This document shows, in pieces, positions 18,766 through 35,556 of a stretch of 64,000 nt of DNA. The position numbers and the translations under genes were made by a program. The stretch spans positions 2,108,001 through 2,172,000 of the forward strand of contig NZ_FO082820.1 in the NCBI RefSeq assembly GCF_000967425.1, given 5' to 3'. The notes beneath the pieces were generated by a model. The model searched no databases, was not told where the DNA came from, and saw only the letters and a list, made by a program, of their open reading frames with translations. The DNA comes from Pseudorhizobium banfieldiae (GTDB taxonomy: Bacteria > Pseudomonadota > Alphaproteobacteria > Rhizobiales > Rhizobiaceae). Numbering within the stretch: position 1 is the first letter of the stretch; every line of letters starts with the position of its first letter.

Positions 18766-19104
18766 CTAGCCGCGCAGATGCTGGCTTTTTTCGTAGATCG
18801 CCGTGGAGCGGGCGCCGGAGCGGCAATAGCCAAGCATTGGCCGCGGCATTTCATCAAGCGCGTCCACCATGCCGTTAACCGCCTGCGCGTCGACACCCAT
18901 GCGGCCCACCGGTACATGCTTCACCTCAAGGCCAAGTGCTTCCGCCTTGGCGGCAATATCTGCGAAGCGCGGCTGGCCCGGTTCCTCCTCGTCCGGCCGA
19001 TTGCAGACGATGGACTTGAACCCCATCGCCTTGATCTCCTCGAGATCCTCGATCCTGATCTGTCCGGTCACGGCGTATTCGTCGTTGATCTGGCGGATAT
19101 CCAT
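18766..19104 (-). CDS. BLH-type phosphatase/sulfur-transferase-like protein (TIGR01244, DUF442)
   Basis: 112 residues. It starts DIRQINDEYAVTGQI, as do members of the beta-lactamase-hydrolase-like (BLH) family. It carries a dual-specificity-phosphatase-like loop, GYCRSGARS (CX5R), with Cys as nucleophile. FKSIVCNRPDEEEPGQPRF is the other conserved block. In rhizobia BLH domains have been tied to sulfide and biofilm regulation, usually fused to an ETHE1-type domain; here the domain is free-standing. GGAGGAA upstream of ATG 19104 decides the start over a longer reading frame. Confidence 0.85.
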   Translation of the reverse strand: MDIRQINDEYAVTGQIRIEDLEEIKAMGFKSIVCNRPDEEEPGQPRFADIAAKAEALGLEVKHVPVGRMGVDAQAVNGMVDALDEMPRPMLGYCRSGARSTAIYEKSQHLRG

Positions 19105-19178
19105 GGGCTCGTTCCTCCGGCTCGTTGTCTTGGGTGATCCCTTACGCCGCAGCCGGCAGGGCGTCAATCGAGCCGGGG

Positions 19179-21623: not shown

Positions 21624-22340
21624 TCAGGCTGCCAAGCGTCCTGAGGCGACCAGCCGCGATTTTCCCGAGCGGACAACCCTTGCCGGCATCAGGCGCACCA
21701 CCTCCTGGGCGAAGGCGGCGGCGTTCTCCCGCGCCTTATCAAGGTTGCTCACCCTTGCGGCATCTAGGGTCCGCAGCGTCCCCCCTGTCTCGAAGAGCTC
21801 CTTGAAGGCGATGCGTTCGCCGATGGGCGTGTTCAGCACATTGACGCCGCGGGCGGCAAGAAGCCCCTTGATCGCCAGCAGCGCCTTGGTCGTGACCATG
21901 GACGTGACGCGGGTGAGGACAACGGAATGGGGAATGGCAAGATTGGCCTTTTCCTTCATCATGGCCAGGAGGTCGAGGATCTGCGCCGCACCCTTTGCAT
22001 CCATTGCCGATCCCTGGACGGGGATCATGACATGGTCCGAGAGGCCGATCGCGGTCGTTACAAGTGCGTCCCTCGCACCCGCTAGATCGATAACGAAGAA
22101 ATCAACCTGATCCCGCATTTCTCGCAAATGACACTGAAGGGACGCGACGGACACCTGCGAGATCACCTCCAGGTTATGGAGCGGGCCGGAAATCTCCGCC
22201 CACTGGGTGATCCACTGCTGCGGGTCGCAGTCGATGATTGCCACGCGGTGGCCCTGACCGGCCAGTTCGGTGGCGAGCAAAAGTGCTGCGGTGGTCTTTC
22301 CGGCACCGCCCTTGGCGTTGGCAAAGGAAATTACGGGCAT
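21624..22340 (-). CDS. Orphan ParA-family ATPase
   Basis: 238 residues. The deviant Walker A box is FANAKGGAGKTTAALLLA. Walker A' is IIDCDPQQ, and DFFVIDLAGARDALVTTA follows. AAGGATC lies before ATG 22340; the longer reading frame upstream has no support. ParA/MinD-like ATPases position DNA, protein clusters or cell-envelope machinery by ATP-dependent surface patterning. No ParB or repABC partner is next to it, so chromosome or plasmid partition is not indicated. The cargo is unknown. Confidence 0.88.
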   Translation of the reverse strand: MPVISFANAKGGAGKTTAALLLATELAGQGHRVAIIDCDPQQWITQWAEISGPLHNLEVISQVSVASLQCHLREMRDQVDFFVIDLAGARDALVTTAIGLSDHVMIPVQGSAMDAKGAAQILDLLAMMKEKANLAIPHSVVLTRVTSMVTTKALLAIKGLLAARGVNVLNTPIGERIAFKELFETGGTLRTLDAARVSNLDKARENAAAFAQEVVRLMPARVVRSGKSRLVASGRLAA

Positions 22341-22485
22341 TCTCGATCCTTGAAGGGCATGAGCCGCATCGCTCAGATGCGCACCGGGGAGGCATGGTGC
22401 ATTGAGGGCCACCTTGCTTAATCATGGTTAACAAAGGGTAAATTTAGCGATCAACGATATAAGGGGTAACTTGTCGCTGCGGCAG

Positions 22486-22514
22486 GAAAAACCCCCGAAG
22501 CATCGGCTTCGGGG
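22486..22514 (-). terminator. Rho-independent terminator of the seven-gene minus-strand operon
   Basis: A 9-bp stem (CCCCGAAGC 22493-22501 with GCTTCGGGG 22506-22514) and tetraloop are followed on the minus strand by TTTTT. It lies 28 nt past the alcohol dehydrogenase stop. Confidence 0.88.
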
Positions 22515-22542: not shown

Positions 22543-23688
22543 TCAGAAGCAGTCGACGAAGAGTTGCCGAGTATTTTCCAGCGTCATCGGCACAGGATTG
22601 CCACCGCAGCTCGGATCCTCGATCGCCATGGCGGCGAGCTCATCGATTCGATCCTGACCGATGCCCATCGCCGTCAGGTTTTCCGGTACGCCGAGTTCCG
22701 CCCGCAGCGACAGGACATAGTCGTAGAAGCCGTCGAAGCCTCCGCTGATACCGAGATAGGCGGCCGCACGCTCGATCTTCTCTTCGATCGCCGACCGGTT
22801 GAAGCGCAGCACCGGCGGCATGACGACCGCGTTCGTCATGCCATGATGCGTGTTGTAAACGGCTCCGATCGGGTGCGACAGCGAATGGATCGCGCCCAGA
22901 CCCTTCTGGAAGGCAACGGCCCCCATGGCCGCAGCGGACATCATGTTGGTGCGCGCCTCGATATCGGTCCCGTCCCTGTAGGCGCGAGGCAGGAATTCCT
23001 TGACCAGCCGCATGCCTTCAAGCGCAATCCCCTGGCTCATCGGGTGGTAGAAGGGCGAGCAATAGGCTTCCAGGCAGTGGGCAAAAGCGTCCATGCCGGT
23101 GCCGGCTGTGATCATCTTCGGCATGCCGACCGTCAGTTCAGGATCCGCAATCACCACACCGGGCAGGAACTTCGGGTGGAAGATGATCTTCTTCACATGC
23201 GTCGCGGAATTGGTGATCACCGAAGCGCGTCCGACCTCTGAACCCGTTCCTGCGGTCGTCGGCACTGCGACGATCGGCGCAATGCCGTCGGTGCTGGCGC
23301 GGGTCCACCAGTCGCCGATATCCTCGAAATCCCAGACAGGCCGGGTCTGGCCGACCATGAAGGCGACCGCCTTGCCGAGGTCGAGGCCCGAACCGCCGCC
23401 GAAGGCCACCACGCCGTCGTGCCCGCCATCGCGAAACGCCTTTACGCCTGCTTCCAGGTTCTTCTCGTTCGGATTGGGATCGACGTCGGCGAAAATAGCA
23501 CGACCGAGGCCCGCCTCCTCCAGAACATCCAGCGCATGACCGGTGATCGCCATCGAGGCAAGTCCACGGTCGGTGACCAGAAGCGGCTTCTTCATGCCGA
23601 GCGACTTGCAGGCGTCGGCCAGTTCCTTGATCCGGCCCCGGCCGAGCTTGACGGCGGTCGGATAGCTCCAGTTCGCGACGATGTTCAT
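22543..23688 (-). CDS. Iron-dependent (group III) alcohol dehydrogenase
   Basis: 381 residues. The NAD(P)-binding segment is VAFGGGSGLDLGKAVAF, and VAVPTTAGTGSEVG is the family substrate loop. The metal ligands are visible: Asp and His in GMDAFAHCLEAY, His in HSLSHPIGA and His in YNTHHGMTNA. Group III enzymes interconvert primary alcohols and aldehydes. The start codon overlaps the aldehyde dehydrogenase stop (ATGA on the minus strand), so the two are coupled and likely act in sequence. It is the last gene of the operon, followed by a strong terminator. The operon context suggests an amino-alcohol derivative as substrate (inference). Confidence 0.93.
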   Translation of the reverse strand: MNIVANWSYPTAVKLGRGRIKELADACKSLGMKKPLLVTDRGLASMAITGHALDVLEEAGLGRAIFADVDPNPNEKNLEAGVKAFRDGGHDGVVAFGGGSGLDLGKAVAFMVGQTRPVWDFEDIGDWWTRASTDGIAPIVAVPTTAGTGSEVGRASVITNSATHVKKIIFHPKFLPGVVIADPELTVGMPKMITAGTGMDAFAHCLEAYCSPFYHPMSQGIALEGMRLVKEFLPRAYRDGTDIEARTNMMSAAAMGAVAFQKGLGAIHSLSHPIGAVYNTHHGMTNAVVMPPVLRFNRSAIEEKIERAAAYLGISGGFDGFYDYVLSLRAELGVPENLTAMGIGQDRIDELAAMAIEDPSCGGNPVPMTLENTRQLFVDCF

Positions 23689-25070
23689 TTCGTGACTTTC
23701 TTCAGATGGTAGGACTTGGGTCTTGTCAGGTTGTGGAAGCCGAGGACGGAGAGCGAGCCACCACGGCCGGTCTCCTTGACGCCGGTCCAGCAAAGCGCCG
23801 GATCGAGATAGTCGGCGCGGTTCATGAAGACGGTACCAGTTTCGATCTCGCGACCGATCCGCCCCGCCCTTTCGGCATCCTGCGTCCAGAGCGATGCCGT
23901 AAGGCCGTACTTGCTGTCGTTCATCAGGGAGATCGCCTCATCGTCGCTCTTCACCTTCATGATCCCGACGGCCGGGCCGAAGGTCTCCTCGGTCATGAAC
24001 GACATGGAGTGATCGACATCCACCAGAACCTGCGGCGCCAGATAGGCGCCGCCGTCATCGGCCGGAAAGAGCTTCGGATCGACCAGCGCCTTCGCGCCGC
24101 GCGAAACGGCATCCGACAGCTGCTCGCGGACCACCTTGGCGAAACGCTTGTTCGCCATCGGCCCCAGCGTCGTCTCCTGCTCCAGCGGATTGCCGAGCTT
24201 ATAGTTTGAGACCCAGGCGACCGACTTTTCGACGAACTGGTCGTAGAGCGACTCATGCACGTAGATGCGCTCGATGCCGCAGCAGCACTGCCCGGAATTA
24301 TAGGTCGCGCCGTCCATCAGCGTGTCGACGGCCGCATCCAGATCGGCGTCCTCCATGACGTAACCCGGATCCTTGCCGCCGAGCTCGAGGCCGAGCCCGG
24401 CGAAGGTGCCTGCGGCTGCGCGCTCGATGGAGCGTCCGCCTTCCACCGAGCCGGTGAAGTTGATGAAGCTGAACTTGCCGGCGGCGATCAGCGCCGAGGT
24501 AGTGTCATGGTCGAGGAAGAGGTTGACGAAGACGTCCTCCGGCACGCCCGCCTCGACGAAGGCACGTACTAGCCGCTCGCCGACCAGCAGCGTCTGCGAG
24601 GCATGCTTGATGACGACCGTATTACCGGCCATCAGCGCCGGCGCGACGGTATTGATCGCCGTCATGTAGGGGTAGTTCCACGGGGCGATGACGAAGACGA
24701 CGCCATGCGGCTCGCGCTCGATGCGGCGCTCGAAGCTCGCGCTCTCCTCCACCACCATCGGCGCCAGCGCATCGGCGGCGATCGAGGCGACATAGTTGGA
24801 ACGCTCGTTGAAGCCCTTGAACTCGCCGCCATAGCGGATCGGGCGGCCCATCATCCAGGCGAGCTCCGGCACCACCTCGTCAGCCATCTCGTTCAACCGC
24901 GCGACGCCCTTGAGAACGAGTTGCACACGCTCCTCGAGCGGGCGCTTGGCCCAGCTCCTCTGGGCCTTGCGGGCACGGTCAACGACCGCGGCAGCCTCCT
25001 CGAAACCCATGGCCTGTCGCTCAGCATAGACCGAGCCGTCGACCGGCGAGATACATTGGATCATGGTCAT
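23685..25070 (-). CDS. NAD(P)-dependent aldehyde dehydrogenase
   Basis: 461 residues, slightly short for the superfamily. The cofactor segment is VIAPWNYPYMTAINTVAPAL. The general-base Glu lies in LGLELGGKDPGYV and the catalytic Cys in NSGQCCCGIERIYV. EETFGPAVGIMKV is also typical. It oxidises an aldehyde to the acid and probably takes the product of the coupled iron alcohol dehydrogenase downstream. The glutamine synthetase homologue 41 nt upstream recalls puuA-puuC gene pairs. ATG 25070 has AGGAAG at 7 nt; a GTG two codons earlier and an ATG two codons later are alternatives. Confidence 0.93.
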   Translation of the reverse strand: MTMIQCISPVDGSVYAERQAMGFEEAAAVVDRARKAQRSWAKRPLEERVQLVLKGVARLNEMADEVVPELAWMMGRPIRYGGEFKGFNERSNYVASIAADALAPMVVEESASFERRIEREPHGVVFVIAPWNYPYMTAINTVAPALMAGNTVVIKHASQTLLVGERLVRAFVEAGVPEDVFVNLFLDHDTTSALIAAGKFSFINFTGSVEGGRSIERAAAGTFAGLGLELGGKDPGYVMEDADLDAAVDTLMDGATYNSGQCCCGIERIYVHESLYDQFVEKSVAWVSNYKLGNPLEQETTLGPMANKRFAKVVREQLSDAVSRGAKALVDPKLFPADDGGAYLAPQVLVDVDHSMSFMTEETFGPAVGIMKVKSDDEAISLMNDSKYGLTASLWTQDAERAGRIGREIETGTVFMNRADYLDPALCWTGVKETGRGGSLSVLGFHNLTRPKSYHLKKVTK

Positions 25071-25110
25071 GATCACACTTCCTGTCGTTTATGATCTTGT
25101 TGGTCGAGCA

Positions 25111-26487
25111 CTAGGCCCTTTCGAAGCCGCGCGCCACTTCCCAATCGGTGATGCGACGATCGTATTCTTCCTGCTCCCACTGTGCGGCGCGGGTATAGTG
25201 GTCGATGACGTCGTCACCGAACGCGGAGCGCAGCATGGCTGAGCCGGACATCAGCGCCGTCGCGTCGCGCAGCGTGTGCGGAATTTCGCGAATGTCCTTG
25301 CCACCATAGGCGTCACCCTCGAAGGCCGGCTCCAGCTCCATTCTGTTCTCGATCCCGTCGATGCCGGCTGCAAGGAGCGCGGCCATGGCAAGATAAGGAT
25401 TGAGATCGGAGCCACCGACGCGGCATTCGATGCGGATGCCCTTGGTCGAGTCACCGCAGAGGCGATAGCCGGCCGTCCGGTTGTCCTTTGACCAGATCGC
25501 CTTGGTGGGCGCGAACGTGCCGGCCATGAAGCGCTTGTAGGAGTTGATATAGGGCGCTAGGAAATAGGTAATCTCGCCGGCATGGGCGAGCAGCCCCGCA
25601 ATGTAGTGCTTCATCGTCTCCGACATGCCGTGCTCGGCGTCCTCGTCGAAGAAGAGCGGCGTCTTGCCGTCAGCACTCCAGAGCGACTGATGGATGTGGG
25701 AGGAGGAACCCGCGGCACTGTAGTTCCACTTGGCAAGGAAGGTGATGGCCTTACCTTTCGACCAGGCGATCTCCTTGCAGCCGTTCTTGATGATCACGTG
25801 GCGGTCGGCCATGGTCAGTGCATCGGCATAGCGGACATTGATTTCCTCCTGCCCGGCCGAGGCCTCGCCCTTGGAGTTCTCCACCGGGATGCCGGCGCCC
25901 TGCAACCCGTTGCGGATTGCTCGCATCACCTCCTCTTCCTTGGTGGTCTGGAAGATGTGGTAGTCCTCGTTATACGCGCTGGCGAGCTTGAGATTGCGGT
26001 AGCCGGACGCGTGGGCCTGCTCATAGGTCTGGTCGAACAGGAAGAACTCAAGCTCTGTGGCCATGAAGGCCTTGATGCCCATGGCTTCAAGGCGGGCGAC
26101 CTGCTTCTTGAGGATGGCCCGCGGCGAATGCGGTACTTCCTCGTGGGTGTGGTGGTCGAGCACGTCGCAAAGGACCAGGGCGGTTCCTTCGAGCCAGGGA
26201 ATGCGCCGGAGCGTCGAGAGGTCCGGCTTCATGGTGTAATCGCCATAGCCCTTTTCCCAGCTCGTTGCCTTGTAGCCGGAAATGGTCTCCATCTCCATGT
26301 CGGTGGCGAGCAGATAGTTGCAGCTATGGGTTTCCTCATAGGCGCTCTCGACGAAAAACTGCGCTTGGAAGCGCTTGCCCATCAGGCGACCCTGCATGTC
26401 CACGAGGCAGGCGAGTACGGTGTCGATGCGGCCGTCTGAGACGTCCTTCTTGAGGTCGTCGAAGGTGTATTGAGCGGGCACTGTCAT
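25111..26487 (-). CDS. Glutamine synthetase family protein (PuuA-type gamma-glutamyl-amine ligase)
   Basis: 458 residues. The beta-grasp domain (TVLACLVDMQGRLMGKRF) is followed by the catalytic barrel. Metal and substrate motifs are kept: MATELEFFLF, SAGQEEINVRYADAL, SSSHIHQSLW, NSYKRFMAGTFAPTKAIWSKDNR and RIECRVGGSDLNPYLAMAA. The adenylylation-site Tyr segment of true GlnA (NLYDLPPEE-like) is absent, as in GlnA3/PuuA paralogues. Such enzymes attach the gamma-carboxyl of glutamate to an amine other than ammonia using ATP. Placement before aldehyde and alcohol dehydrogenases supports a catabolic role. The amine is unknown; polyamine, ethanolamine-like and isopropylamine-like substrates are possible. 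Confidence 0.88.
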   Translation of the reverse strand: MTVPAQYTFDDLKKDVSDGRIDTVLACLVDMQGRLMGKRFQAQFFVESAYEETHSCNYLLATDMEMETISGYKATSWEKGYGDYTMKPDLSTLRRIPWLEGTALVLCDVLDHHTHEEVPHSPRAILKKQVARLEAMGIKAFMATELEFFLFDQTYEQAHASGYRNLKLASAYNEDYHIFQTTKEEEVMRAIRNGLQGAGIPVENSKGEASAGQEEINVRYADALTMADRHVIIKNGCKEIAWSKGKAITFLAKWNYSAAGSSSHIHQSLWSADGKTPLFFDEDAEHGMSETMKHYIAGLLAHAGEITYFLAPYINSYKRFMAGTFAPTKAIWSKDNRTAGYRLCGDSTKGIRIECRVGGSDLNPYLAMAALLAAGIDGIENRMELEPAFEGDAYGGKDIREIPHTLRDATALMSGSAMLRSAFGDDVIDHYTRAAQWEQEEYDRRITDWEVARGFERA

Positions 26488-26534
26488 ATCCTCAGGAGAC
26501 CGTTATCGGTCCTGTTGCGATAGGGACTGTCAAC

Positions 26535-26566
26535 TCAGGCCGGCGTCCAGCGAAATGCCGGCCTGA
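26535..26566 (-). terminator. Intra-operon hairpin after dctP
   Basis: A perfect 10-bp stem (TCAGGCCGGC 26535-26544 with GCCGGCCTGA 26557-26566) has a 12-nt loop and no U-tract. It lies between the TRAP binding-protein gene and the glutamine synthetase homologue. It more likely protects the upstream mRNA end or attenuates than fully terminates. Confidence 0.6.
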
Positions 26567-26582
26567 ACTTAGGTTTAGTCAA

Positions 26583-27629
26583 TCAAGTATTCCGGTACGG
26601 AGGACCTGCTTTTTCCATGATCGCCTGGTAGTCCTTGAGAATCTGCACCACCTTCGCGGTGCGTTCGCTCTGAGCGGCAACCTCCTCCCAAAATTCGTAG
26701 GCTTTTTCTTCGACAGTCTTCCATTCTGCATCCGGGACGGTGGTGAGTTCGAGCTTGCTCTCACCGGCGCGCAGGCGGGCCTCGCCGCCCCAATACCAGT
26801 GAAGGCGCCGGAAATGGGATGAATCCATGCAGGCGCGCCACAGAACCTGCAGGTGCTCCGGCACCTCGTTCCAGCGATCGGCATTGGCAAAGAACGAGCC
26901 GCACCAGCCGCCCGAAATATTGTTGGTGAGGAAGTATTTCGTCACATCTTCCCAACCGGACGTTTTCATCTCTGTGATACCGGACCAGGCGATGGCATCG
27001 ATCTCGCCGGTCTGCATCGCGACCTGGACATCCTCGAATGGGATGGTGACCGGGACAACGCCGAACTGGGTGAGGAACTTGCCTGCAGTCGGGAAGGTGA
27101 AGACCCGAAGACCCTTCAAGTCCTCCAGCGTTTTGATCGGCTTGTTTGTAGAGAAATTGCATGGATCCCACGCGCCGGCGGAAAGCCACTTTACGCCGAC
27201 CTCCGAGTAGGCCTGATCCCAGATCTCGGCCAGACCGAACTGGTAGAACAGCGTCGGCACATCGAGGCCGAAGCGCGAGGCGAAGGGGAAGTAGCCGCCA
27301 AACACCTTGATGTCGACCGGCGAGTTCATGGAATCGTCGTCCGACTGAACAGCGTCGATCGTGCCCGCCTGCATGGCGCGGAACAGCTCGCCCGTCGGCA
27401 CAAGCTGGTCGGCCGTGTAGAGTTCGATCTCCATCTGTCCATTGGCGGCCTTGTTGAAAGCATCCACGCAGGGACGAACCACCTCTTCGGCAAGCGCCGG
27501 GCCGGCATAGGTCTGCAGCCGCCAGCGGATCGGCGCCTGCGCCTTTACATGTGGTGCGGCCAGCATGGCTGGTGCGGCTGCCGCGGCGGTCAAACCCGCC
27601 GTCTTCAGGAATTGTCTTCTGTTGGTCAT
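26583..27629 (-). CDS. TRAP transporter substrate-binding protein (DctP family)
   Basis: 348 residues. The twin-arginine signal (NRRQFLKTAGLTAAAAAP, cleaved near VKAQA) predicts Tat export, common for TRAP binding proteins. The DctP fold is shown by WRLQTYAGPA, LVPTGELFRAMQAGTIDAVQ, DLKGLRVFTFPTAGKFL, VAMQTGEIDAIAWSG and the helical C-terminal end. It captures a small carboxylate or amine-bearing ligand for the DctQ/DctM proteins encoded just upstream. AGGGAA lies before the ATG. The ligand is not predictable, but the downstream enzymes suggest a nitrogenous compound. Confidence 0.93.
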   Translation of the reverse strand: MTNRRQFLKTAGLTAAAAAPAMLAAPHVKAQAPIRWRLQTYAGPALAEEVVRPCVDAFNKAANGQMEIELYTADQLVPTGELFRAMQAGTIDAVQSDDDSMNSPVDIKVFGGYFPFASRFGLDVPTLFYQFGLAEIWDQAYSEVGVKWLSAGAWDPCNFSTNKPIKTLEDLKGLRVFTFPTAGKFLTQFGVVPVTIPFEDVQVAMQTGEIDAIAWSGITEMKTSGWEDVTKYFLTNNISGGWCGSFFANADRWNEVPEHLQVLWRACMDSSHFRRLHWYWGGEARLRAGESKLELTTVPDAEWKTVEEKAYEFWEEVAAQSERTAKVVQILKDYQAIMEKAGPPYRNT

Positions 27630-27731
27630 GTCTGTTCCCTCTGTTGATGATTGATACAGTCACGCCGCACCGAGTTGTCCGGTGCGAAGCCGGCCCGTTG
27701 CCCGGGCTCTCTTGTTGATGTTCCGAGTGCG

Positions 27732-29057
27732 CTAGCCGCGAACATTGACATGCTCCGGCAGCCAGAGTGCGATCTGCGGAAACGCCATGATGATGGCGAG
27801 CCCGATCATCATGATGATGACGAAAGGCCATACCGATCGGTAGATGTCTCCCAACGAAACCTCCGGCGGCGCCATGGCCCGCATCAGGAAGAGATTATAG
27901 CCGAAGGGCGGCGTCATGTAGGAGATCTGGCAGGTGATCGTGTAGAGGACGCCGTACCAGATCAGGTCGAAGCCGAGCTTGCCGACCAGCGGGATGTAGA
28001 GCGGCGCGACGATGACGAGCATGGCCGTATCATCGAGGAACATGCCCATCAGGATGAACGACAGCTGCATCAGGATGAGGATCGTCCAGGGCGAAAGGCC
28101 CCAATCGTTGACTAGCAGTCCCTCGATCGCGCGGACCGCTCCCAGCCCGTCGAAGACGGCGCCGAAGCAGAGTGCGGCGAGGATGATCCACATGAACATG
28201 CAGGTGATGCCGAGCGTCTGCTCGATCGTCCGCGTCAGGACGCCGTTGCCGAGCCGCCCCTTCACGGCGGCCACGACCAGAGCGGACAGCGCGCCGACCG
28301 CGGAGCTTTCCACGAGGCTGGTATAGCCCATCAGGAAAAGCCCCATCATCAGGAAGAAGATCAGGAACGGCAGGATGCCGGCGCGAAGCAGCTTCAGCTT
28401 CTCCGAGAGCGGAATGTCCCGCTCTTCCTTGGGGAGCACCGGACCAAGTGCCGGGTTCAGACGGCAGCGGATGACGATGTAGATGATGAAAAGAGCTGCG
28501 AGGAGCAGGCCCGGAAAGGCACCGGCAAGCCAGAGTTGGCCGACCGGCTGGCGGGCAATCATGCCGTAGAGCACGAGCACCACGCTTGGCGGCACCAGGA
28601 TGCCGAGCGAACTGCCCGCTTGGATGACGCCGGTCACCATGGTCTTGTCGTAGCCGCGCTTGAGCAGTTCCGGCAGCGCAATCGTCGCGCCGATCGCCAT
28701 GCCGGCTACGGAGAGGCCGTTCATCGCCGAGATGATGACCATCAGGCCGATCGTGCCGACGGCAAGGCCGCCGCGAAGACCGCCCATCCAGACGTGGAAG
28801 GCCTTGTAGAGGTCTTCCGCAATGCCGGACTCCGACAGAAGGTAGCCCATGAAGATGAACATCGGCAGCGTCAGAAGCGGATACCACTTCATCAGCTTCA
28901 TCGCGGCCGAGAAGCCGAGTTCAAAACCGCCATTGCCCCACAGGATCGCGGCAGCAACGACGCCGACGAATCCGATCACGGCAAAAACGCGCTGCCCCGT
29001 CAGCATGCTGAGCAGCATGGAGGAGAACATGAACAGGATGATCAGTTCTGCACTCAT
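27732..29057 (-). CDS. TRAP transporter large permease (DctM family)
   Basis: 441 residues with about 12 membrane segments. LLTLPMFIFMGYLLSESGIAED, the family's first re-entrant region, is followed by GLSVAGMAIGATIALPELLKRGY, then by LDDTAMLVIVAPLYIPL and TPPFGYNLFLMRA near the C-terminus. It forms the ion-coupled channel of the tripartite importer. The start overlaps the DctQ stop by 4 nt (ATGA), and the binding-protein gene follows after 102 nt. Confidence 0.95.
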   Translation of the reverse strand: MSAELIILFMFSSMLLSMLTGQRVFAVIGFVGVVAAAILWGNGGFELGFSAAMKLMKWYPLLTLPMFIFMGYLLSESGIAEDLYKAFHVWMGGLRGGLAVGTIGLMVIISAMNGLSVAGMAIGATIALPELLKRGYDKTMVTGVIQAGSSLGILVPPSVVLVLYGMIARQPVGQLWLAGAFPGLLLAALFIIYIVIRCRLNPALGPVLPKEERDIPLSEKLKLLRAGILPFLIFFLMMGLFLMGYTSLVESSAVGALSALVVAAVKGRLGNGVLTRTIEQTLGITCMFMWIILAALCFGAVFDGLGAVRAIEGLLVNDWGLSPWTILILMQLSFILMGMFLDDTAMLVIVAPLYIPLVGKLGFDLIWYGVLYTITCQISYMTPPFGYNLFLMRAMAPPEVSLGDIYRSVWPFVIIMMIGLAIIMAFPQIALWLPEHVNVRG

Positions 29058-29563
29058 GCCAGCGGCCTCCCCAGCGCAACCGCCAGATCCTTGATGAAGA
29101 TGGAGGTTGCCTGCAGGAGGGTAAGGAAGATGCCGATCACCATCACGATCTTGATCGGCGCCATGTAAGGCGACCAGGACGAGTAGCTCGTCTCGCTGTA
29201 CTGGATCGCGTAGTTGGTGCTGGATATGCCGCCATAGAGGAGGAAGAACAGGTAGATAAACAGCATGAAGATGGTGACCACGTCGACTATCGCCTTGGTT
29301 CGGGGCGACCAGCGACCATAGGCAAGGTCCATCCTGACATGCGAGTCGAGCTGCAGCGAATAGGCGCCGCCAAGCAGAAAATAGGCGGCCATCACGAACT
29401 GAGCCATCTCCAGCGTCCAGAGCGAAGGCAGGAAGAATGCCTTCGACATGGACGACCAGAGAAGGATGCCCATCATCACGAAGATAAGGTACATGGTCAC
29501 GCGGCCGACCCCGCGATTGAATCGGTCGACAACGCGGACGTAAGTCTTCAGCACGTCAGGCAT
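29054..29563 (-). CDS. TRAP transporter small permease (DctQ family)
   Basis: 169 residues with four membrane segments: VTMYLIFVMMGILLWSS, LEMAQFVMAAYFLLGGAYSL, AIVDVVTIFMLFIYLFFLLYG and IKIVMVIGIFLTLLQA. HVRMDLAYGRWSPR is the conserved cytoplasmic loop. It partners DctM, with which it is translationally coupled. The ribosome site is weak (GGCGGG). The amidohydrolase-like gene ends 67 nt upstream on the same strand and is probably the first gene of this operon. Confidence 0.92.
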   Translation of the reverse strand: MPDVLKTYVRVVDRFNRGVGRVTMYLIFVMMGILLWSSMSKAFFLPSLWTLEMAQFVMAAYFLLGGAYSLQLDSHVRMDLAYGRWSPRTKAIVDVVTIFMLFIYLFFLLYGGISSTNYAIQYSETSYSSWSPYMAPIKIVMVIGIFLTLLQATSIFIKDLAVALGRPLA

Positions 29564-29630
29564 CGGCGCCCGCCGCCGCTAGCATGGTGTGATCGTGCAC
29601 CCTTTCATTCTCCCAGTCCGTTCCACCTCG

Positions 29631-30425
29631 TCAGCCGCCATTCTTGTTGTTCTTGGTCGGCGTCCCAATGCTCTCCCTCAACAACTTGCTGAGGAAATCT
29701 GCCGCCGCGCTCTGGCCAGCCTCGTCGGCGATCAGGTCGTTGCGGACTTCGATCATCACGTTCAGAAGTCCAGCAGGCAAGGCATGAAGTTCAAGCGTGT
29801 GAGTCACGCCGTCTGCCGGGCCATACGGCTCGTTCCGCTCCAGCCGGTAAGGGGACGTCCCTCCCGTTGTCTGCAGCATCCTGTCGGCCAGACGGCTGTC
29901 CGTATCGTGGAGGATGCCGATTTCCACTGCCCGCTCCTGTCCAAAATAGACGCGCGTGAAGCTGTGGACCGTGACGAGCACCGTCTGCAGCCCCCTCGCC
30001 CGTCGCGCCGCAATCTCGTCGCGGATCGCGCCCTGAAAAGGCAGGTAGAGCGAGGTGGTGCGTAGCGACTTCTCCGCCTCCGACAGGTTCTCGTTGCCCG
30101 GAATGCGGAAGAGTTCGCTGACGTCCCGGATGGCGGCGGGCGATTCCGGCGGGCGATTGCAGTCATAGACAAGCCGGGAAAAGCGCTGGTAGATCAGTGT
30201 GGCGTCAAGCTGCTTCGAAATGAGCCGCGCAACCGCGAGCGCGCCCGGATCCCAGGCGATGTGCGACACAAGCGCGTCTTCGGATAGGCCGAGCGTCCCA
30301 TAGCGTTTCGGCAGTCTGCGCGAAGCATGCTCACAAACGAGGAGCACCTCGCCCCGTCCCCGGGGGTTTTCGATTGCGACTGGCTCGCCGTCATTTTCCG
30401 TGAAGAATGTCTTTTCGGCCAGCAT
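29631..30425 (-). CDS. N-formylglutamate amidohydrolase-like protein (PF05013)
   Basis: 264 residues. Blocks typical of the family are LLVCEHASRRLPKRYGTLGL, HIAWDPGALAVARLIS, FSRLVYDCNRPPES, VTVHSFTRVYFG and VMIEVRNDLI. The classical enzyme (HutG-type) cleaves N-formylglutamate. Many rhizobial paralogues are uncharacterised and sit near amino-acid or amine transporters. At the head of an operon with a gamma-glutamyl-ligase homologue it could be the hydrolase that releases glutamate at the end of the pathway; this is inference. The start is uncertain: ATG 30425 or GTG 30452, neither with a clear ribosome site. Confidence 0.82.
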   Translation of the reverse strand: MLAEKTFFTENDGEPVAIENPRGRGEVLLVCEHASRRLPKRYGTLGLSEDALVSHIAWDPGALAVARLISKQLDATLIYQRFSRLVYDCNRPPESPAAIRDVSELFRIPGNENLSEAEKSLRTTSLYLPFQGAIRDEIAARRARGLQTVLVTVHSFTRVYFGQERAVEIGILHDTDSRLADRMLQTTGGTSPYRLERNEPYGPADGVTHTLELHALPAGLLNVMIEVRNDLIADEAGQSAAADFLSKLLRESIGTPTKNNKNGG

Positions 30426-30455
30426 GTCGTCCGGAGCGCAAGTGTGGAACACACC

Positions 30456-30469
30456 GAAGAGAATTCTTC
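30456..30469 (-). promoter_or_regulatory. Candidate RpiR operator, site 1
   Basis: Read on the minus strand, this 14-mer is GAAGAATTCTCTTC. It matches site 2 (30498-30511, plus strand) at 12 of 14 positions in opposite orientation. It lies 31 nt from the amidohydrolase-like start, inside the divergent promoter region. Confidence 0.5.
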
Positions 30470-30497
30470 ATCTTCATTCCTCCGTCAATGCAGATCT

Positions 30498-30511
30498 GAA
30501 AATTTCTCTTC
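30498..30511 (+). promoter_or_regulatory. Candidate RpiR operator, site 2
   Basis: GAAAATTTCTCTTC, inverted with respect to site 1. The centres are 42 bp apart, about four helical turns, so a bound dimer pair would face the same side of the DNA. It lies 77 nt before the chosen rpiR start. Confidence 0.5.
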
Positions 30512-30588
30512 ATCACGCGCATTGACTCCCCGAAGGAAAGAAGAGTTAAATCTTGTCAACCGGCGAAGACCGGAAGGGAACAGCATCA

Positions 30589-31476
30589 GTGCCAACCGCC
30601 GCACGCACCGTCTCGGATGTCATCCGCACCCGCTACGACAGCCTGACGCGTGCCGAAAGGCAGCTGGCCGACAGGATCTTGGAGAACTATCCGGTGTCCG
30701 GCCTCGGGAGCATCACGACGATTGCGGAAAACGCAGGCGTTTCCACGCCCACAGTTGCCCGCATGGTGCAGAAGCTCGGCTTCAAGGGATATCCGGAATT
30801 CCAGTCCCACCTGCACCACGAGCTTGAGGAAACGATTTCCAATCCGATTACCAAGCATGATCGATGGGCGCTGAACGCGCCGGGGACGCACATCCTCAAT
30901 CGCTTCGCGGAAGCGGTGACCGCCAACCTCCGCGACACACTTTCCGACCTGGATACCAAGACGTTCGAAGGTGCGGCAGCACTGCTGGGCGACCTCGATC
31001 GCAGCATCTACTTCGTCGGCGGTCGCATCACCGGAGCGCTCGCGGAGTATTTCTTCACGCACATGCAGGTCATCCGCCCGAGGGCGACGTTGATCTCGAA
31101 CAATTCTAGTTCGTGGCCACAGCATGTGCTGAACATGAACCGCGGCGATGTCCTGGTGATCTTCGACATTCGTCGCTACGAGCAGGAAATGGCAACACTG
31201 GCGGAGGTCGCAAGGCAGAACGGCGTCGTGATCGTCCTGATCACCGACATCTGGGGCTCGCCGGTCGCAAAACATGCCCAGCACACTTTCCGCGCCCGGA
31301 TAGAAGCGCCCAGCGCCTGGGATTCCTCGGTCGTGACTCTCTTTCTCGTCGAGGCACTGATCGAAGCCGTGCAGAGCGCCACCTGGGACAGGACGCGCGA
31401 ACGCATGACCTCGCTTGAAGAGCTCTTCGAGCAATCGCGTCTTTTCCGCCGTCCGCACCGACACAAGCTGGAATGA
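30589..31476 (+). CDS. RpiR/MurR-family transcriptional regulator
   Basis: 295 residues. The N-terminal HTH_6 domain (RYDSLTRAERQLADRILENYP, then SITTIAENAGVSTPTVARMVQKLGF) is followed by a SIS domain (about 115-270) with IYFVGGRITGALAEYFFTHM, VLVIFDIRRYEQEM and VIVLITDIWGSPV. SIS domains in this family usually bind a sugar phosphate, but others respond to unrelated catabolites. Placed between two divergent transporter/catabolic units, it is the obvious local regulator. The chosen start is GTG 30589 with GGAAGGGA upstream; a TTG at 30553 would add 12 residues. Confidence 0.9.
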   Translation: MPTAARTVSDVIRTRYDSLTRAERQLADRILENYPVSGLGSITTIAENAGVSTPTVARMVQKLGFKGYPEFQSHLHHELEETISNPITKHDRWALNAPGTHILNRFAEAVTANLRDTLSDLDTKTFEGAAALLGDLDRSIYFVGGRITGALAEYFFTHMQVIRPRATLISNNSSSWPQHVLNMNRGDVLVIFDIRRYEQEMATLAEVARQNGVVIVLITDIWGSPVAKHAQHTFRARIEAPSAWDSSVVTLFLVEALIEAVQSATWDRTRERMTSLEELFEQSRLFRRPHRHKLE

Positions 31477-31602
31477 GCGTCCGGCGAAAAGCCTGCAGTG
31501 CACGAGACTTATCAGCGAATACTCGCCTGTGCAGACTGTCACATACCGTACATGAACCGGCTCTACGAGTCGCCGCCACACGACCAACCTCAGGAGGATA
31601 TC

Positions 31603-32709
31603 GTGCTCAACAAGACCCACCGCTTTCTCTCTCTGACGACCGCCGTCGTCATCGCCTCGACGAGCCTGGCCTATGCCGAGCCCAGTGCGGAACTGATCGA
31701 AGCCGCCAAGAAGGAAGGCATGCTGACCACTATCGCGCTGCCCCACAGCTGGTGCGGCTATGGCGAAGTCATCGCCGGCTTCAAGGCAAAGTACCCGGAA
31801 ATCCAGGTTAACGAGCTGAACCCCGATGCTGGCTCGGCCGATGAAGTGGAAGCCATCAAGGCGAACAAGGACAACAAGGGCCCGCAGGCCCCTGATGTCA
31901 TCGACGTCGGTCTGGCCTTCGGCCCGCAGATGAAGGACGAAGGCCTGCTGCAGCCCTACAAGGTATCTACCTGGGACGAGATTCCGGACGACATCAAGGA
32001 TGCCGAAGGCTACTGGTACGGTGACTATTACGGCGTGCTCTCCTTCATCGTGAACAAGGACATGGTTGAGACGGTGCCGCAGGACTGGGCCGACCTCCTG
32101 AAGCCGGATTACGCCGCACAGGTCGCCCTCGCCGGTGACCCGCGCGCCTCCAACCAGGCCATTCTCGCCGTGCTTGCAGCCGGTCTTTCCAAAGGTGCCA
32201 AGGCTGGCGAGGAATCCGGCAAGTCCGGTCTTGAGTACTTCGCCGAGCTGAACAAGGCCGGCAACTTTGTACCGGTCATCGCGAAGGCGGGCACGATCGC
32301 CCAGGGCGCCACGCCGATTGCGGTCGCCTGGGACTACAACGCCCTCGCATGGCGCGACGAGCTGAAGGGCAACCCGCCGGTGGAGGTCGTCGTCCCCAAG
32401 ACCGGCGTGCTGGCCGGGGTCTACGTCCAGGGCATCTCGGCCTATGCGCCGCATCCCAATGCCGCCAAGCTCTGGATGGAATACCTCTATTCGGACGAGG
32501 GCCAGAACCTCTGGCTGAAGGGCTATTGCCACCCTGCTCGCTTCAACGCCATGGCAAAGGCCGGCAAGATCCCGCAGGAACTGATGGACGCCCTGCCGCC
32601 GGCTGAAAGCTACGAAGCGGCGGTCTTCCCGACGGTCGAGGAGCAGAATGCCAACAAGGCCGCCGTCACAGGCGGCTGGGACAGCGTCGTCGGCGCCAAC
32701 GTCCAGTAA
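31603..32709 (+). CDS. ABC transporter substrate-binding protein (family 1, polyamine/iron type)
   Basis: 368 residues. The signal peptide (LNKTHRFLSLTTAVVIASTS, cleaved near AYAEP) is followed by a periplasmic type II binding fold: TIALPHSWCGYGEVIAGFKAK, PDVIDVGLAFGPQM, ADLLKPDYAAQVAL and a late VAWDYNALAW. Relatives bind Fe3+, polyamines, thiosulfate or phosphonates; no diagnostic ligand residues can be assigned here. The start is GTG 31603, five nt after AGGAGG, which rules out the much longer frame. It follows rpiR by 126 nt and precedes two permeases and an ATPase. Confidence 0.9.
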   Translation: MLNKTHRFLSLTTAVVIASTSLAYAEPSAELIEAAKKEGMLTTIALPHSWCGYGEVIAGFKAKYPEIQVNELNPDAGSADEVEAIKANKDNKGPQAPDVIDVGLAFGPQMKDEGLLQPYKVSTWDEIPDDIKDAEGYWYGDYYGVLSFIVNKDMVETVPQDWADLLKPDYAAQVALAGDPRASNQAILAVLAAGLSKGAKAGEESGKSGLEYFAELNKAGNFVPVIAKAGTIAQGATPIAVAWDYNALAWRDELKGNPPVEVVVPKTGVLAGVYVQGISAYAPHPNAAKLWMEYLYSDEGQNLWLKGYCHPARFNAMAKAGKIPQELMDALPPAESYEAAVFPTVEEQNANKAAVTGGWDSVVGANVQ

Positions 32710-32726
32710 TCCGCTTTCACTGGGTG

Positions 32727-32753
32727 GCCCGGTCCGAAGCATTCGGGCCGGGC
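32727..32753 (+). terminator. Intra-operon hairpin after the ABC binding-protein gene
   Basis: A 12-bp stem with one G-U pair (32727-32738 with 32742-32753) and a 3-nt loop has no real U-tract after it. It lies 17 nt past the binding-protein stop, before the permease genes. It probably stabilises the upstream message or partly terminates. Confidence 0.65.
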
Positions 32754-32824
32754 TTGCCATTTGATCGGCACTCGCCGTATTTTCGCCACAGATCAACAGC
32801 CGAGCCGAGGGAGACGACCGCGCC

Positions 32825-33700
32825 ATGACCAATAGCTCTCCCGCAACCCGGCTGCACCTGCCACTGACCTGGCTCGGGCTGGCGCCCTTTGCGCTCTTCG
32901 TGACATTGTTTCTGGTGCTGCCGACCATGCATATCGTAATCGGCGCCTTCCAGACCCGCGATGGGTCGTTCACGCTGCAGAACATCATCGACCTCAACAG
33001 CGGGACAATCCCGTCAAGCTACTGGATCTCGATTAAGATCTCCGCCGCCTCCGCCGCGCTGGGATCTATCATTGGCTTTGGCATGGCCGTCGCCGTTGTT
33101 TTCGGTGCGGTGCCACGTTGGGTGCGCTCGCCGCTGATGACCTTCTCGGGCGTCGCATCGAACTTCGCCGGCGTGCCGCTGGCCTTCGCTTTCCTGGCGA
33201 CCTTTGGTCCGGTTGGTCTCGTCACCGTCTTGCTCCGCCAGAACTTCGGGATCGTCCTGCAACGCGACCTTGGCTTCAACATCCTGAGCTTCTGGGGCCT
33301 GACCGTTACCTACCTCTTCTTCCAGATCCCGCTGATGATCCTTATAATCACCCCCGCGCTGGAAGGCCTGCGCCGCGAATGGCGGGAGGCGGCACAGGTG
33401 CTCGGCGCCTCTACCCTCCAGTACTGGCGGATGGTAGCGCTGCCGATCCTCTTTCCGTCATTGCTCGGCACCTTCGCGCTGCTCTTTGCCAATGCCTTCG
33501 GCGCCGTCGCGACCGCCATCGCCCTCACCGGATCGAGCCTCAACATCGTGCCCATCCAGCTCTTTGCACAGATCCGCGGAGATGTGCTCGGCAATCCAAA
33601 CCTCGGCTATGCCATGGCCTTCGGGATGATCGTCGTCACGGCCGTGGCCAACGTGGTCTACATCTGGCTGCGCATCCGCGCCGAAAGGTGGCTGAAATGA
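32825..33700 (+). CDS. ABC transporter permease, first subunit
   Basis: 291 residues with six to seven membrane segments. The EAA loop contacting the ATPase is visible as EWREAAQVLGASTLQYWRMV. The first segment begins LTWLGLAPFALFVTLFLVLP, as in PotB/ThiP-like permeases. The stop overlaps the start of the second permease (ATGA). GAGGGAG lies upstream but rather far from the ATG. Confidence 0.92.
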   Translation: MTNSSPATRLHLPLTWLGLAPFALFVTLFLVLPTMHIVIGAFQTRDGSFTLQNIIDLNSGTIPSSYWISIKISAASAALGSIIGFGMAVAVVFGAVPRWVRSPLMTFSGVASNFAGVPLAFAFLATFGPVGLVTVLLRQNFGIVLQRDLGFNILSFWGLTVTYLFFQIPLMILIITPALEGLRREWREAAQVLGASTLQYWRMVALPILFPSLLGTFALLFANAFGAVATAIALTGSSLNIVPIQLFAQIRGDVLGNPNLGYAMAFGMIVVTAVANVVYIWLRIRAERWLK

Positions 33701-34488
33701 GTATCGGCGCACGCATCATCGGCTGGGCGGTCCTCATCTTCGGCCTCCTCTACTTCTTTGTGCCGCTTGGGGGTCTCTTCGAGTTTTCCTTGAAGGCACG
33801 GCGGGGCGTCTACTCCTTCGATGCCTATCGCGAGGTTTTCGCCGATCCGCAGTTTCAGGCGACATTCACCTATTCGGTGGTGATGGCACTGGTGACGATT
33901 GCCATCGGCATCGTAATCGTCGTCCCAACCGCATTCTGGGTGCGCCTGAAGATGCCCTGGGCCCGTCCCTATGTGGAATTCGTCACGCTCCTGCCGCTCG
34001 TCATACCGGCGATCGTCGTCGTCTTTGGCTATATCCGGCTCTACAACACGTCGAGCTGGCTGCCGCTGACAGGCTCCGTCTTTGGCACCAACGCGCTCCT
34101 CGCCTTCGGCTATACCATCCTGGCGCTGCCCTACATGTACCGGGCGGTCGATACCGGGCTTAGAACCATCGACGTCGCCACGCTGACGGAAGCCGCGCAG
34201 ATCCTCGGCGCCGGCTGGTTCACGATCCTTCGCCGGGTGATCCTTCCGAACGTCGTTCCGGCGGTGCTTTCGGGGGCGTTTCTCACCTTTGCGATCGTTA
34301 TCGGCGAGTTCACGCTGGCGGCCCTCCTCGACCGCCCGGCGTTCGGCCCGTATCTGCAGCGGATCGGCGCCAACAAGGCTTACGAGCCGTTCGCCCTGTC
34401 CGTCATTGCCTTCGCCATCACCTGGGGCTGCCTTGGCCTCATCCAGCTCGTGTCGCGTTTCAGCAAGGCGGCGCCCTCGCGCATCTAA
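33697..34488 (+). CDS. ABC transporter permease, second subunit
   Basis: 263 residues, PotC-like, with six membrane segments. The EAA loop reads LTEAAQILGAGWFTILRRVILP. It is translationally coupled to the first permease by a 4-nt overlap, and the ATPase gene starts 12 nt after its stop. A longer in-frame reading region upstream is a shadow of the first permease gene. Confidence 0.92.
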   Translation: MSIGARIIGWAVLIFGLLYFFVPLGGLFEFSLKARRGVYSFDAYREVFADPQFQATFTYSVVMALVTIAIGIVIVVPTAFWVRLKMPWARPYVEFVTLLPLVIPAIVVVFGYIRLYNTSSWLPLTGSVFGTNALLAFGYTILALPYMYRAVDTGLRTIDVATLTEAAQILGAGWFTILRRVILPNVVPAVLSGAFLTFAIVIGEFTLAALLDRPAFGPYLQRIGANKAYEPFALSVIAFAITWGCLGLIQLVSRFSKAAPSRI

Positions 34489-34500
34489 GGATCCTACTGC

Positions 34501-35556
34501 ATGTCGTTCCTGGTTCTCGACAACCTCCAGAAAAGCTTCGGCGCCGTGCAGGTGGTGAAGGACTTCAACATGTCGATCGACAAGGGCGAGTTCGTCTCCT
34601 TCCTCGGCCCATCCGGCTGCGGCAAGACGACCGTGCTGCGTATGATCGCCGGATTCGAGACGCCGACCGGCGGTACGATCAGCATCGACGGCCGGGACCA
34701 GAGCCGGCTGAAGACGAACCAGCGCAATATCGGCATGGTCTTCCAGGCTTACGCGCTGTTCCCCAATATGAACGTCTTCGACAATGTCGCCTTCGGGCTC
34801 AAGGTGGCAGGCACGCCGAAGGCACAGATCGAGGCACGGGTGAAGGAAATGCTGGCGCTGATCCGCCTCGAGCACCTCGCCGATCGCTACCCCTACCAGA
34901 TGTCGGGCGGCCAGCAGCAGCGCGTGGCGCTGGCCCGGGCGCTGGCGCCGAAGCCACAACTCCTGCTGCTGGACGAACCGCTATCGGCACTAGACGCGAA
35001 GATCCGCATCTCGCTGCGCGAGGAGATCCGTCAGATCCAGCGGCAGCTCGGCATCACCACGGTCTTCGTGACGCACGACCAGGAAGAGGCCCTTTCGATC
35101 TCCGACCGCATCGTCGTGATGAATGCCGGCCGCGCCGACCAGATCGGCACGCCCTCGGAAATCTACAATCGGCCGACCACTCGCTTCGTCGCCTCCTTCG
35201 TCGGAACGCTCAACATGATCGACGCGAAGGTGGAAGACCCGGCCGCGCAGACAGTGCGGATCGGCGACCAGTTGGTCAGGTTGCGCGACCTGCCCGGGAG
35301 CCACAAGGCGGGCGAGCCAATCCTGCTCGCCTTGCGCCCCGAAGCCGGTTCGATCTCCGAGGGCGGCGACAGTGCCTTGCAGGGGACCGTCCTCTCATCG
35401 AGCTTCCTCGGCTCGGTGGTCCGCACCAAGATCGACGTCGGCGGCAATGCGATATCTTTCGACATGTTCAACGCCCCAGATCTCAGAATGCCGGCACCCG
35501 GCGAGCAGGTGACGCTCAACTTTTCGGCGCAGGACCTGCTCGTGGTGGCGGACTAA
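34501..35556 (+). CDS. ABC transporter ATP-binding protein (PotA/FbpC type)
   Basis: 351 residues. It has Walker A GPSGCGKTT, Q-loop VFQAYALFPNM, signature MSGGQQQRVALARAL, Walker B LLLLDEPLSALD and H-loop VFVTHDQEEA. The C-terminal 110 residues or so form a TOBE-type domain (ILLALRPEAGSISEGGDSAL), as in polyamine, iron and sugar importers. It energises the two permeases encoded immediately upstream. AAGGATC serves as ribosome site. It ends the plus-strand operon, convergent with metH 33 nt away; no terminator is visible between them. Confidence 0.94.
   Translation: MSFLVLDNLQKSFGAVQVVKDFNMSIDKGEFVSFLGPSGCGKTTVLRMIAGFETPTGGTISIDGRDQSRLKTNQRNIGMVFQAYALFPNMNVFDNVAFGLKVAGTPKAQIEARVKEMLALIRLEHLADRYPYQMSGGQQQRVALARALAPKPQLLLLDEPLSALDAKIRISLREEIRQIQRQLGITTVFVTHDQEEALSISDRIVVMNAGRADQIGTPSEIYNRPTTRFVASFVGTLNMIDAKVEDPAAQTVRIGDQLVRLRDLPGSHKAGEPILLALRPEAGSISEGGDSALQGTVLSSSFLGSVVRTKIDVGGNAISFDMFNAPDLRMPAPGEQVTLNFSAQDLLVVAD

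Follow-up and report, generated by a model that had tools for sequence, protein, structure and literature searches.

A probable gamma-glutamylation operon for ethanolamine in Pseudorhizobium banfieldiae, with importer genes that vary among close relatives

What do the seven co-directional genes at positions 22543 to 30425 of a 64,000-nt stretch of Pseudorhizobium banfieldiae DNA (contig NZ_FO082820.1, positions 2,108,001 to 2,172,000; hereafter the window) break down, and what about them is new? They encode a PF05013 enzyme, the components DctQ, DctM and DctP of a tripartite ATP-independent periplasmic (TRAP) transporter, a glutamine-synthetase-like ligase, an aldehyde dehydrogenase (ALDH) and an iron alcohol dehydrogenase (Fe-ADH, or ADH for short). 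A first-pass annotation described an operon with two 4-nt overlaps and a strong terminator at its end, and proposed that an alkanolamine is glutamylated, oxidized to an aldehyde and then to an acid, and released. Coordinates, Pfam assignments and folding bear out the former, and the latter matches published accounts of a route for ethanolamine whose genes are arranged identically. In all likelihood, the seven genes constitute an ethanolamine catabolic operon that operates by gamma-glutamylation, and hence an instance of a known route; the apparent novelty lies in the importer, which differs between close relatives while a second, neighboring importer is constant. Both the variable importer slot and the half of the locus formed by a divergent RpiR-family regulator and an ATP-binding cassette (ABC) importer lay outside the first-pass account. 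Ethanolamine released from phospholipid headgroups is a source of nitrogen and carbon for bacteria.

The operon of Phaeobacter sp. MED193 consists of the genes for RpiR, a gamma-glutamylglycine amidohydrolase (GGAH), EtoVWX, ETAGA, GAADDH and GETADH (Westermann, 2023, PMC10132767, Fig. 5 legend). The window contains the same eight genes of the same protein families in the same order, i.e., RpiR divergent from GGAH-DctQ-DctM-DctP-GS-ALDH-FeADH, where GS is the ligase, including a TRAP importer of the EtoX type. It differs from MED193, however, by an ABC operon behind RpiR, whereas the Fig. 5 legend shows no ABC genes at the ethanolamine operon. MED193 EtoX is reported to bind ethanolamine with a Kd of 7.9 uM; on phosphorylethanolamine, five proteins of the operon (Table 2 of that paper) increase (PMC10132767). 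For an earlier proposal in Chromohalobacter salexigens and A. tumefaciens, its authors refer to Vetting (2015), and this C. salexigens/Agrobacterium C58 ethanolamine cluster is also cited in PMC6529630 and in a review, Table 2 of which gives PF00120, PF00465, PF00171 and PF05013 for C. salexigens (PMC9397018). In Streptomyces coelicolor, the ligase step was shown for GlnA4 and later steps were proposed, the last one by an enzyme of the formylglutamate amidohydrolase family (Krysenko, 2019, PMC6529630). That pathway shares the gamma-glutamylethanolamide synthetase step and the same proposed later steps with the operon discussed here, but its regulator is another one, and the Fig. 2 legend has a dehydrogenase of the short-chain type and names no TRAP genes. 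Since order, families and steps all match, the gamma-glutamylation scheme was already in print. This includes, as a prediction, the role of a PF05013-family enzyme as gamma-glutamylglycine amidohydrolase (PMC10132767, PMC6529630, PMC9397018); thus, the releasing role suggested for this enzyme in the first-pass annotation agrees with the literature but had already been named there.

The reactions that we infer for the window follow this scheme. The TRAP importer EtoVWX would bring ethanolamine into the cell, where the ligase would use ATP to couple the amine of ethanolamine to the gamma-carboxyl group of glutamate, thus producing gamma-glutamylethanolamide. The Fe-ADH would oxidize the protected alcohol to the aldehyde and ALDH would oxidize the aldehyde to the acid, gamma-glutamylglycine, which the PF05013 amidohydrolase would split into glycine and glutamate, so that glutamate is returned. 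RpiR probably represses both divergent transcripts via two dyad sites within 30456-30512, and the ABC operon most likely encodes a further importer, which would take up ethanolamine or a closely related derivative. In the Puu pathway for putrescine, glutamylation by PuuA protects the amine, and oxidation and release follow; the window operon differs in having neither an amine oxidase nor PuuD. The Eut (EutBC) route presumably shares its substrate with the window operon, but it does not involve glutamylation.

The substrate is indicated by the TRAP binding protein. DctP is 65.6% identical over 317 aligned positions to 4uab, which we take to be the ethanolamine-binding Csal_0678, whilst the ligase is 64.4% identical over 447 positions to 5dm3, presumably the C. 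salexigens ligase, and the PF05013 enzyme 61.8% identical over 249 positions to 2odf (Atu2144). The likeness to the C. salexigens/Agrobacterium C58 cluster thus extends to three proteins, although that cluster belongs to another genus. All 24 aligned DctP orthologues (the window and 23 loci, out of the window and 38 listed) have F, Y or L in the column of the Arg that selects for carboxylates in TRAP proteins, and Phe177 of DctP is aligned to this Arg in a different TRAP protein. DctP is, therefore, an EtoX/Csal_0678 orthologue without the carboxylate Arg. Csal_0678 itself is described as having ethanolamine as its ligand and lacking this Arg (PMC4646407), and ethanolamine was called a surprising TRAP ligand because it is positively charged (PMC5812351). 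As DctP is orthologous to an ethanolamine-binding protein, the alkanolamine of the first-pass annotation, which fits, can be narrowed to ethanolamine.

The enzyme cassette is well conserved among close relatives, beyond what coincidence would give. In a sample of the genus, a ligase orthologue (at least 78% identity) is found in 16 of 20 genomes, the own genome and one fragment included. GGAH, ligase, ALDH, ADH and RpiR are present in the regions of all the other 14, as are the three ABC genes that were searched for; TRAP genes are present in one of these regions (L084). A scan of named genomes used the best 80 of at least 595 ligase relatives. In 78 of these loci, the genes for the ABC binding protein and RpiR are divergent from GGAH-slot-ligase-ALDH-ADH, where the slot is the stretch between GGAH and the ligase; the remaining two are interrupted by contig ends. 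Because all 80 are at least 84% identical at the ligase and 78 have the same arrangement, this conservation is a result for the Rhizobiaceae. The complete seven-gene set including TRAP occurs in 10 of the 78 uninterrupted loci.

The content of the slot, by contrast, varies. As assigned from similarity to one query per type, it is an APC permease of the TIGR00907 type in 52 of the 78 loci, a TIGR00908-like ethanolamine permease in 16 and TRAP in 10; of the two loci cut by contig ends, one has a slot with APC and the other with TRAP. Both permease kinds belong to one superfamily, to which TRAP does not belong. When mapped on a quick tree built from the three enzymes ligase, ALDH and ADH, with 81 rows (the 80 named loci and the window), the slot type requires 12 changes, where the minimum is 2 and the mean after shuffling 25.9. 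Thus, the slot type is also clustered by descent. The starred branches of this tree alone force seven changes of the TRAP label. The borders can be seen in two Sinorhizobium loci, one with TRAP (L132) and one with APC (L140): their flanks share 90-95% identity, and the match is lost shortly beyond GGAH and resumes where the ligase begins. A comparison of the window with Neorhizobium xiangyangii (L121), which has the TIGR00908-like permease, shows breaks at almost identical positions, at ~81% identity. We lean slightly towards reading the slot as an importer exchange site, where TRAP and two APC kinds were repeatedly swapped in the Rhizobiaceae, with sharp borders amid constant enzymes, combined with a fixed ethanolamine importer of the 2-aminoethylphosphonate (AEP) ABC type. 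In the open-licence literature searched, neither an importer-exchange slot nor an ABC ethanolamine importer beside this cassette was recognized. If the reading is true, the slot offers a natural experiment on changes in uptake under a constant pathway, and an unassigned family of ABC importers gains a testable substrate. If the ABC system behind RpiR imports ethanolamine, it would, to our knowledge, be the first of the ABC type.

Linkage is the main evidence for the role of the ABC system. In a family sample of 81 genomes from 80 genera, the ABC binding protein is found in 46 genomes. It occurs together with the ligase in 35, within 12 kb in 32 of them (14 divergent upstream, 17 co-directional downstream and one otherwise). 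Across these 81 genomes, the presence of ABC is associated neither with that of the ligase (p 0.23) nor with that of EutB (p 0.08), which argues against strict dependence. Ligase or EutB, however, is present in 44 of the 46 genomes with ABC vs. 25 of the 35 without (p 0.004), and among the 11 genomes that have ABC without the ligase, nine carry EutB. In one of these (G316, locus L101; EutB, no ligase), the ABC operon and a TIGR00908-like permease are transcribed divergently, apparently at the same chromosomal site as the window operon and with the other ethanolamine route in the genome. In another (G349, L097), such a permease separates the ABC genes from EutB, and the distance between EutB and the ABC binding protein is ~9 kb; in the remaining ones, ABC and EutB are farther apart or on different contigs. 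L109, L110 and L111 have an empty slot (63-136 nt), with the ABC genes placed after ADH, and L107 shares this arrangement except that it lacks PF05013. EtoX is found elsewhere in two of these four genomes (G345, G377), the second kind of APC permease being outside the search at the four loci. The ABC system thus probably imports ethanolamine or a compound that is converted to ethanolamine. A second copy of the ABC binding protein lies away from the cassette in G364 and G378, which both have ligase and EutB, and likewise in G361, which has no EutB match.

That the linked system carries AEP or phosphoethanolamine instead of ethanolamine is an unlikely alternative, although similarity points that way: the nearest model of the ATPase is PhnT2, and the best NCBIfam match of the binding protein is an AEP binding protein. 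Both nevertheless stay below the cut-offs of AEP importers, with 418 bits for the ATPase where 457.7 are needed, and 52.7-64.5 bits for the binding protein against models with cut-offs of 310-395.3 (310 for the best match, at 64.5). PhnW/AepZ is not enriched with ABC either: scores over the cut-off are found in 8 of the 46 family genomes with ABC vs. 12 of the 34 that lack it (p 0.12, the trend being opposite to enrichment), and the own genome has none over the cut-off. The loci with an empty slot and ABC genes after ADH also argue against AEP. These points against AEP do not count against phosphoethanolamine.

Several observations do weigh against the ethanolamine operon or the importer readings given above. 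The permease most often present in the slot belongs to a general amino-acid type, and the three slot permeases that were scanned reach 357.6, 362.3 and 369 bits, short of the TIGR00908 ethanolamine permease cut-off of 381.75, with the next model under 140. Two family genomes (G343, G385) have ABC but neither ligase nor EutB. Further points come from a class sample of 289 genomes, the own genome included. EtoX is found in 36 of these, the ligase in 31 and both in 18, where ~3.9 co-occurrences are expected; half of the EtoX-bearing genomes (18/36) thus lack the ligase, and 13 of 36 have neither ligase nor EutB. Regions around EtoX were fetched from all 35 other EtoX-bearing genomes. Ten contain a ligase orthologue (51-79% identity), with GGAH in seven, ALDH in eight and ADH in nine, some of them on short contigs, and in 7 of the 17 other genomes with EtoX and ligase, the ligase lies outside the fetched region. 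Thus, of the joint conservation that the first-pass annotation had proposed to check, the part concerning close relatives stands, with the enzymes together in 78 of 80, but at class level it does not extend beyond these 10 of 35 regions. L047, L049 and L052 (G020, G060, G187) show an RpiR-PF05013-TRAP arrangement with no adjoining ligase, ALDH or ADH, which is unaccounted for by the pathway scheme, and L059 is GGAH-TRAP-ALDH-ADH without ligase. Finally, ABC orthologues occur in 7 of the 289 genomes, and the six other than the own genome have no ligase companion; EutB is present in one of these six.

Some of these observations bear on the possibility that this chemistry serves a different alkanolamine, or a number of them, such as aminopropanol, alaninol or N-methylethanolamine, so that ethanolamine would be one substrate among many. 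The enzymes belong to broad families, a precedent exists in the isopropylamine pathway via gamma-glutamylalaninol, and the general APC permease is the most frequent in the slot (52 of all 80 named loci, with one more at a contig end). This option is improbable, however, as 16 of the 80 named loci have an ethanolamine-permease-like protein in the slot, and ligase and EutB are rarely found together. In the family sample, the ligase is present in 57 genomes, EutB in 14 and both in two (Fisher p 2.4e-6, relatedness ignored), and a search of the own genome gave no EutB. EtoX is found in 40 of the 81, and 39 of these have the ligase. Moreover, the reported data for MED193 EtoX show no binding to four analogues, i.e., PE, PC and two glycerol phosphates, which include no other alkanolamine (PMC10132767). 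With ethanolamine as the substrate, the EutBC-independent route is commoner than EutB in the sampled genomes of the Rhizobiaceae and seldom present alongside it.

The DGSS motif and the flap Glu are important residues of GlnA. The ligase lacks the DGSS motif, has Phe at the flap-Glu position, as do its aligned relatives (at least 51% identity) except for Trp in L109, and scores below the cut-offs of GlnA (TIGR00653; 265.3 vs. 429.15 bits), of glutamine synthetase type III (GlnIII; 241 vs. 469.6 bits) and of the gamma-glutamylputrescine synthetase PuuA (NF045547; 204 vs. 650 bits), which places it outside GlnA type I. That it is nevertheless an ordinary glutamine synthetase isozyme, in an operon for an unrelated carboxylate imported by a standard TRAP system, is suggested by its generic annotation and PF00120 domain but is highly improbable in view of these residues and scores, of the DctP without carboxylate Arg, and of the genome's own, separate GlnA, which has both DGSS and the flap Glu.

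The PF05013 enzyme was also considered as the N-formylglutamate deformylase HutG, which was rejected at 20.4 bits against a TIGR02017 cut-off of 278.75. Two further PF05013 genes of the genome (C1:2657431-2658123, L001; C1:2623430-2624044, L002) have higher Pfam scores than the operon copy.

Table 1. Features of the ethanolamine locus and its surroundings, in window positions.
Feature	Position	Strand	Remarks
Intrinsic terminator	22493..22514	-	9-pair stem + GTTTTT
Iron alcohol dehydrogenase (Fe-ADH), predicted gamma-glutamylethanolamide dehydrogenase	22543..23688	-	PF00465/PF25137
Aldehyde dehydrogenase (ALDH), predicted oxidation of gamma-glutamyl aldehyde	23685..25076	-	PF00171
Glutamine-synthetase-like ligase, predicted gamma-glutamylethanolamide synthetase	25111..26487	-	PF00120
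TRAP binding protein DctP, EtoX/Csal_0678 orthologue, TAT signal	26583..27629	-	best PDB match 4uab, 503.5 bits
TRAP large permease DctM (EtoW)	27732..29057	-	PF06808
TRAP small permease DctQ (EtoV)	29054..29563	-	PF04290
PF05013 (FGase) enzyme, predicted gamma-glutamylglycine amidohydrolase (GGAH)	29631..30425	-	Pfam 135.5 bits
Candidate RpiR operator 1, GAAGAGAATTCTTCA	30456..30470	.	best-conserved 15-mer of GGAH/RpiR intergenic region
Candidate RpiR operator 2, TGAAAATTTCTCTTCA, dyad resembling operator 1	30497..30512	.	conservation
RpiR/MurR-family regulator (HTH_6 + SIS), divergent from operon	30553..31476	+	
ABC solute-binding protein (SBP_bac_6), second importer	31603..32709	+	GTG start after AGGAGG
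ABC permease 1	32825..33700	+	
ABC permease 2	33697..34488	+	
ABC ATPase, nearest model PhnT2 (AEP type)	34501..35556	+	418 bits vs. cut-off 457.7

The Pfam families were confirmed for all seven operon genes (Table 1). DctQ overlaps DctM, and ALDH overlaps ADH, by 4 nt, and the remaining intergenic gaps are 67, 102, 95 and 34 nt. For the PF05013 gene, the ATG at 30425 was used as the start; an alternative GTG at 30452 is also in frame. Seven of the nine pairs in the stem of the terminator are G-C, and a 51-nt stretch containing it folds at -22.4 kcal/mol (z -2.42), with 3 of 200 shuffles equally good. Beyond the operon, RpiR and the four-gene ABC operon extend divergently from 30553 to 35556.

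The region between GGAH and RpiR contains two conserved words. The first candidate operator, which reads TGAAGAATTCTCTTC from 30470 to 30456, is matched exactly in 26 of 78 loci, with one mismatch in 50 and with two in two (mean 0.69), against a median of 5.67 mismatches over all 113 intergenic 15-mers of the window. Next in rank are words overlapping it, and then those of the second dyad, for which the best-matching 15-mers have a mean of 2.0 mismatches over the 78 loci. In the open-licence literature searched, these two candidate operators at 30456-30512 were not seen. The location of both suits a repressor that would act on both divergent transcripts.

Some neighboring genes of the window have relatives near the loci discussed above. 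Relatives of a ParA-like ATPase (21627-22412; 58%) and of a TIGR01244 sulfur transferase (18769-19167; 70%) are found beside the ABC operon of L101. An acetolactate-synthase-like thiamine pyrophosphate protein (16658-18304; PRK08199, 917 bits) has a homologue near the TRAP locus L049.

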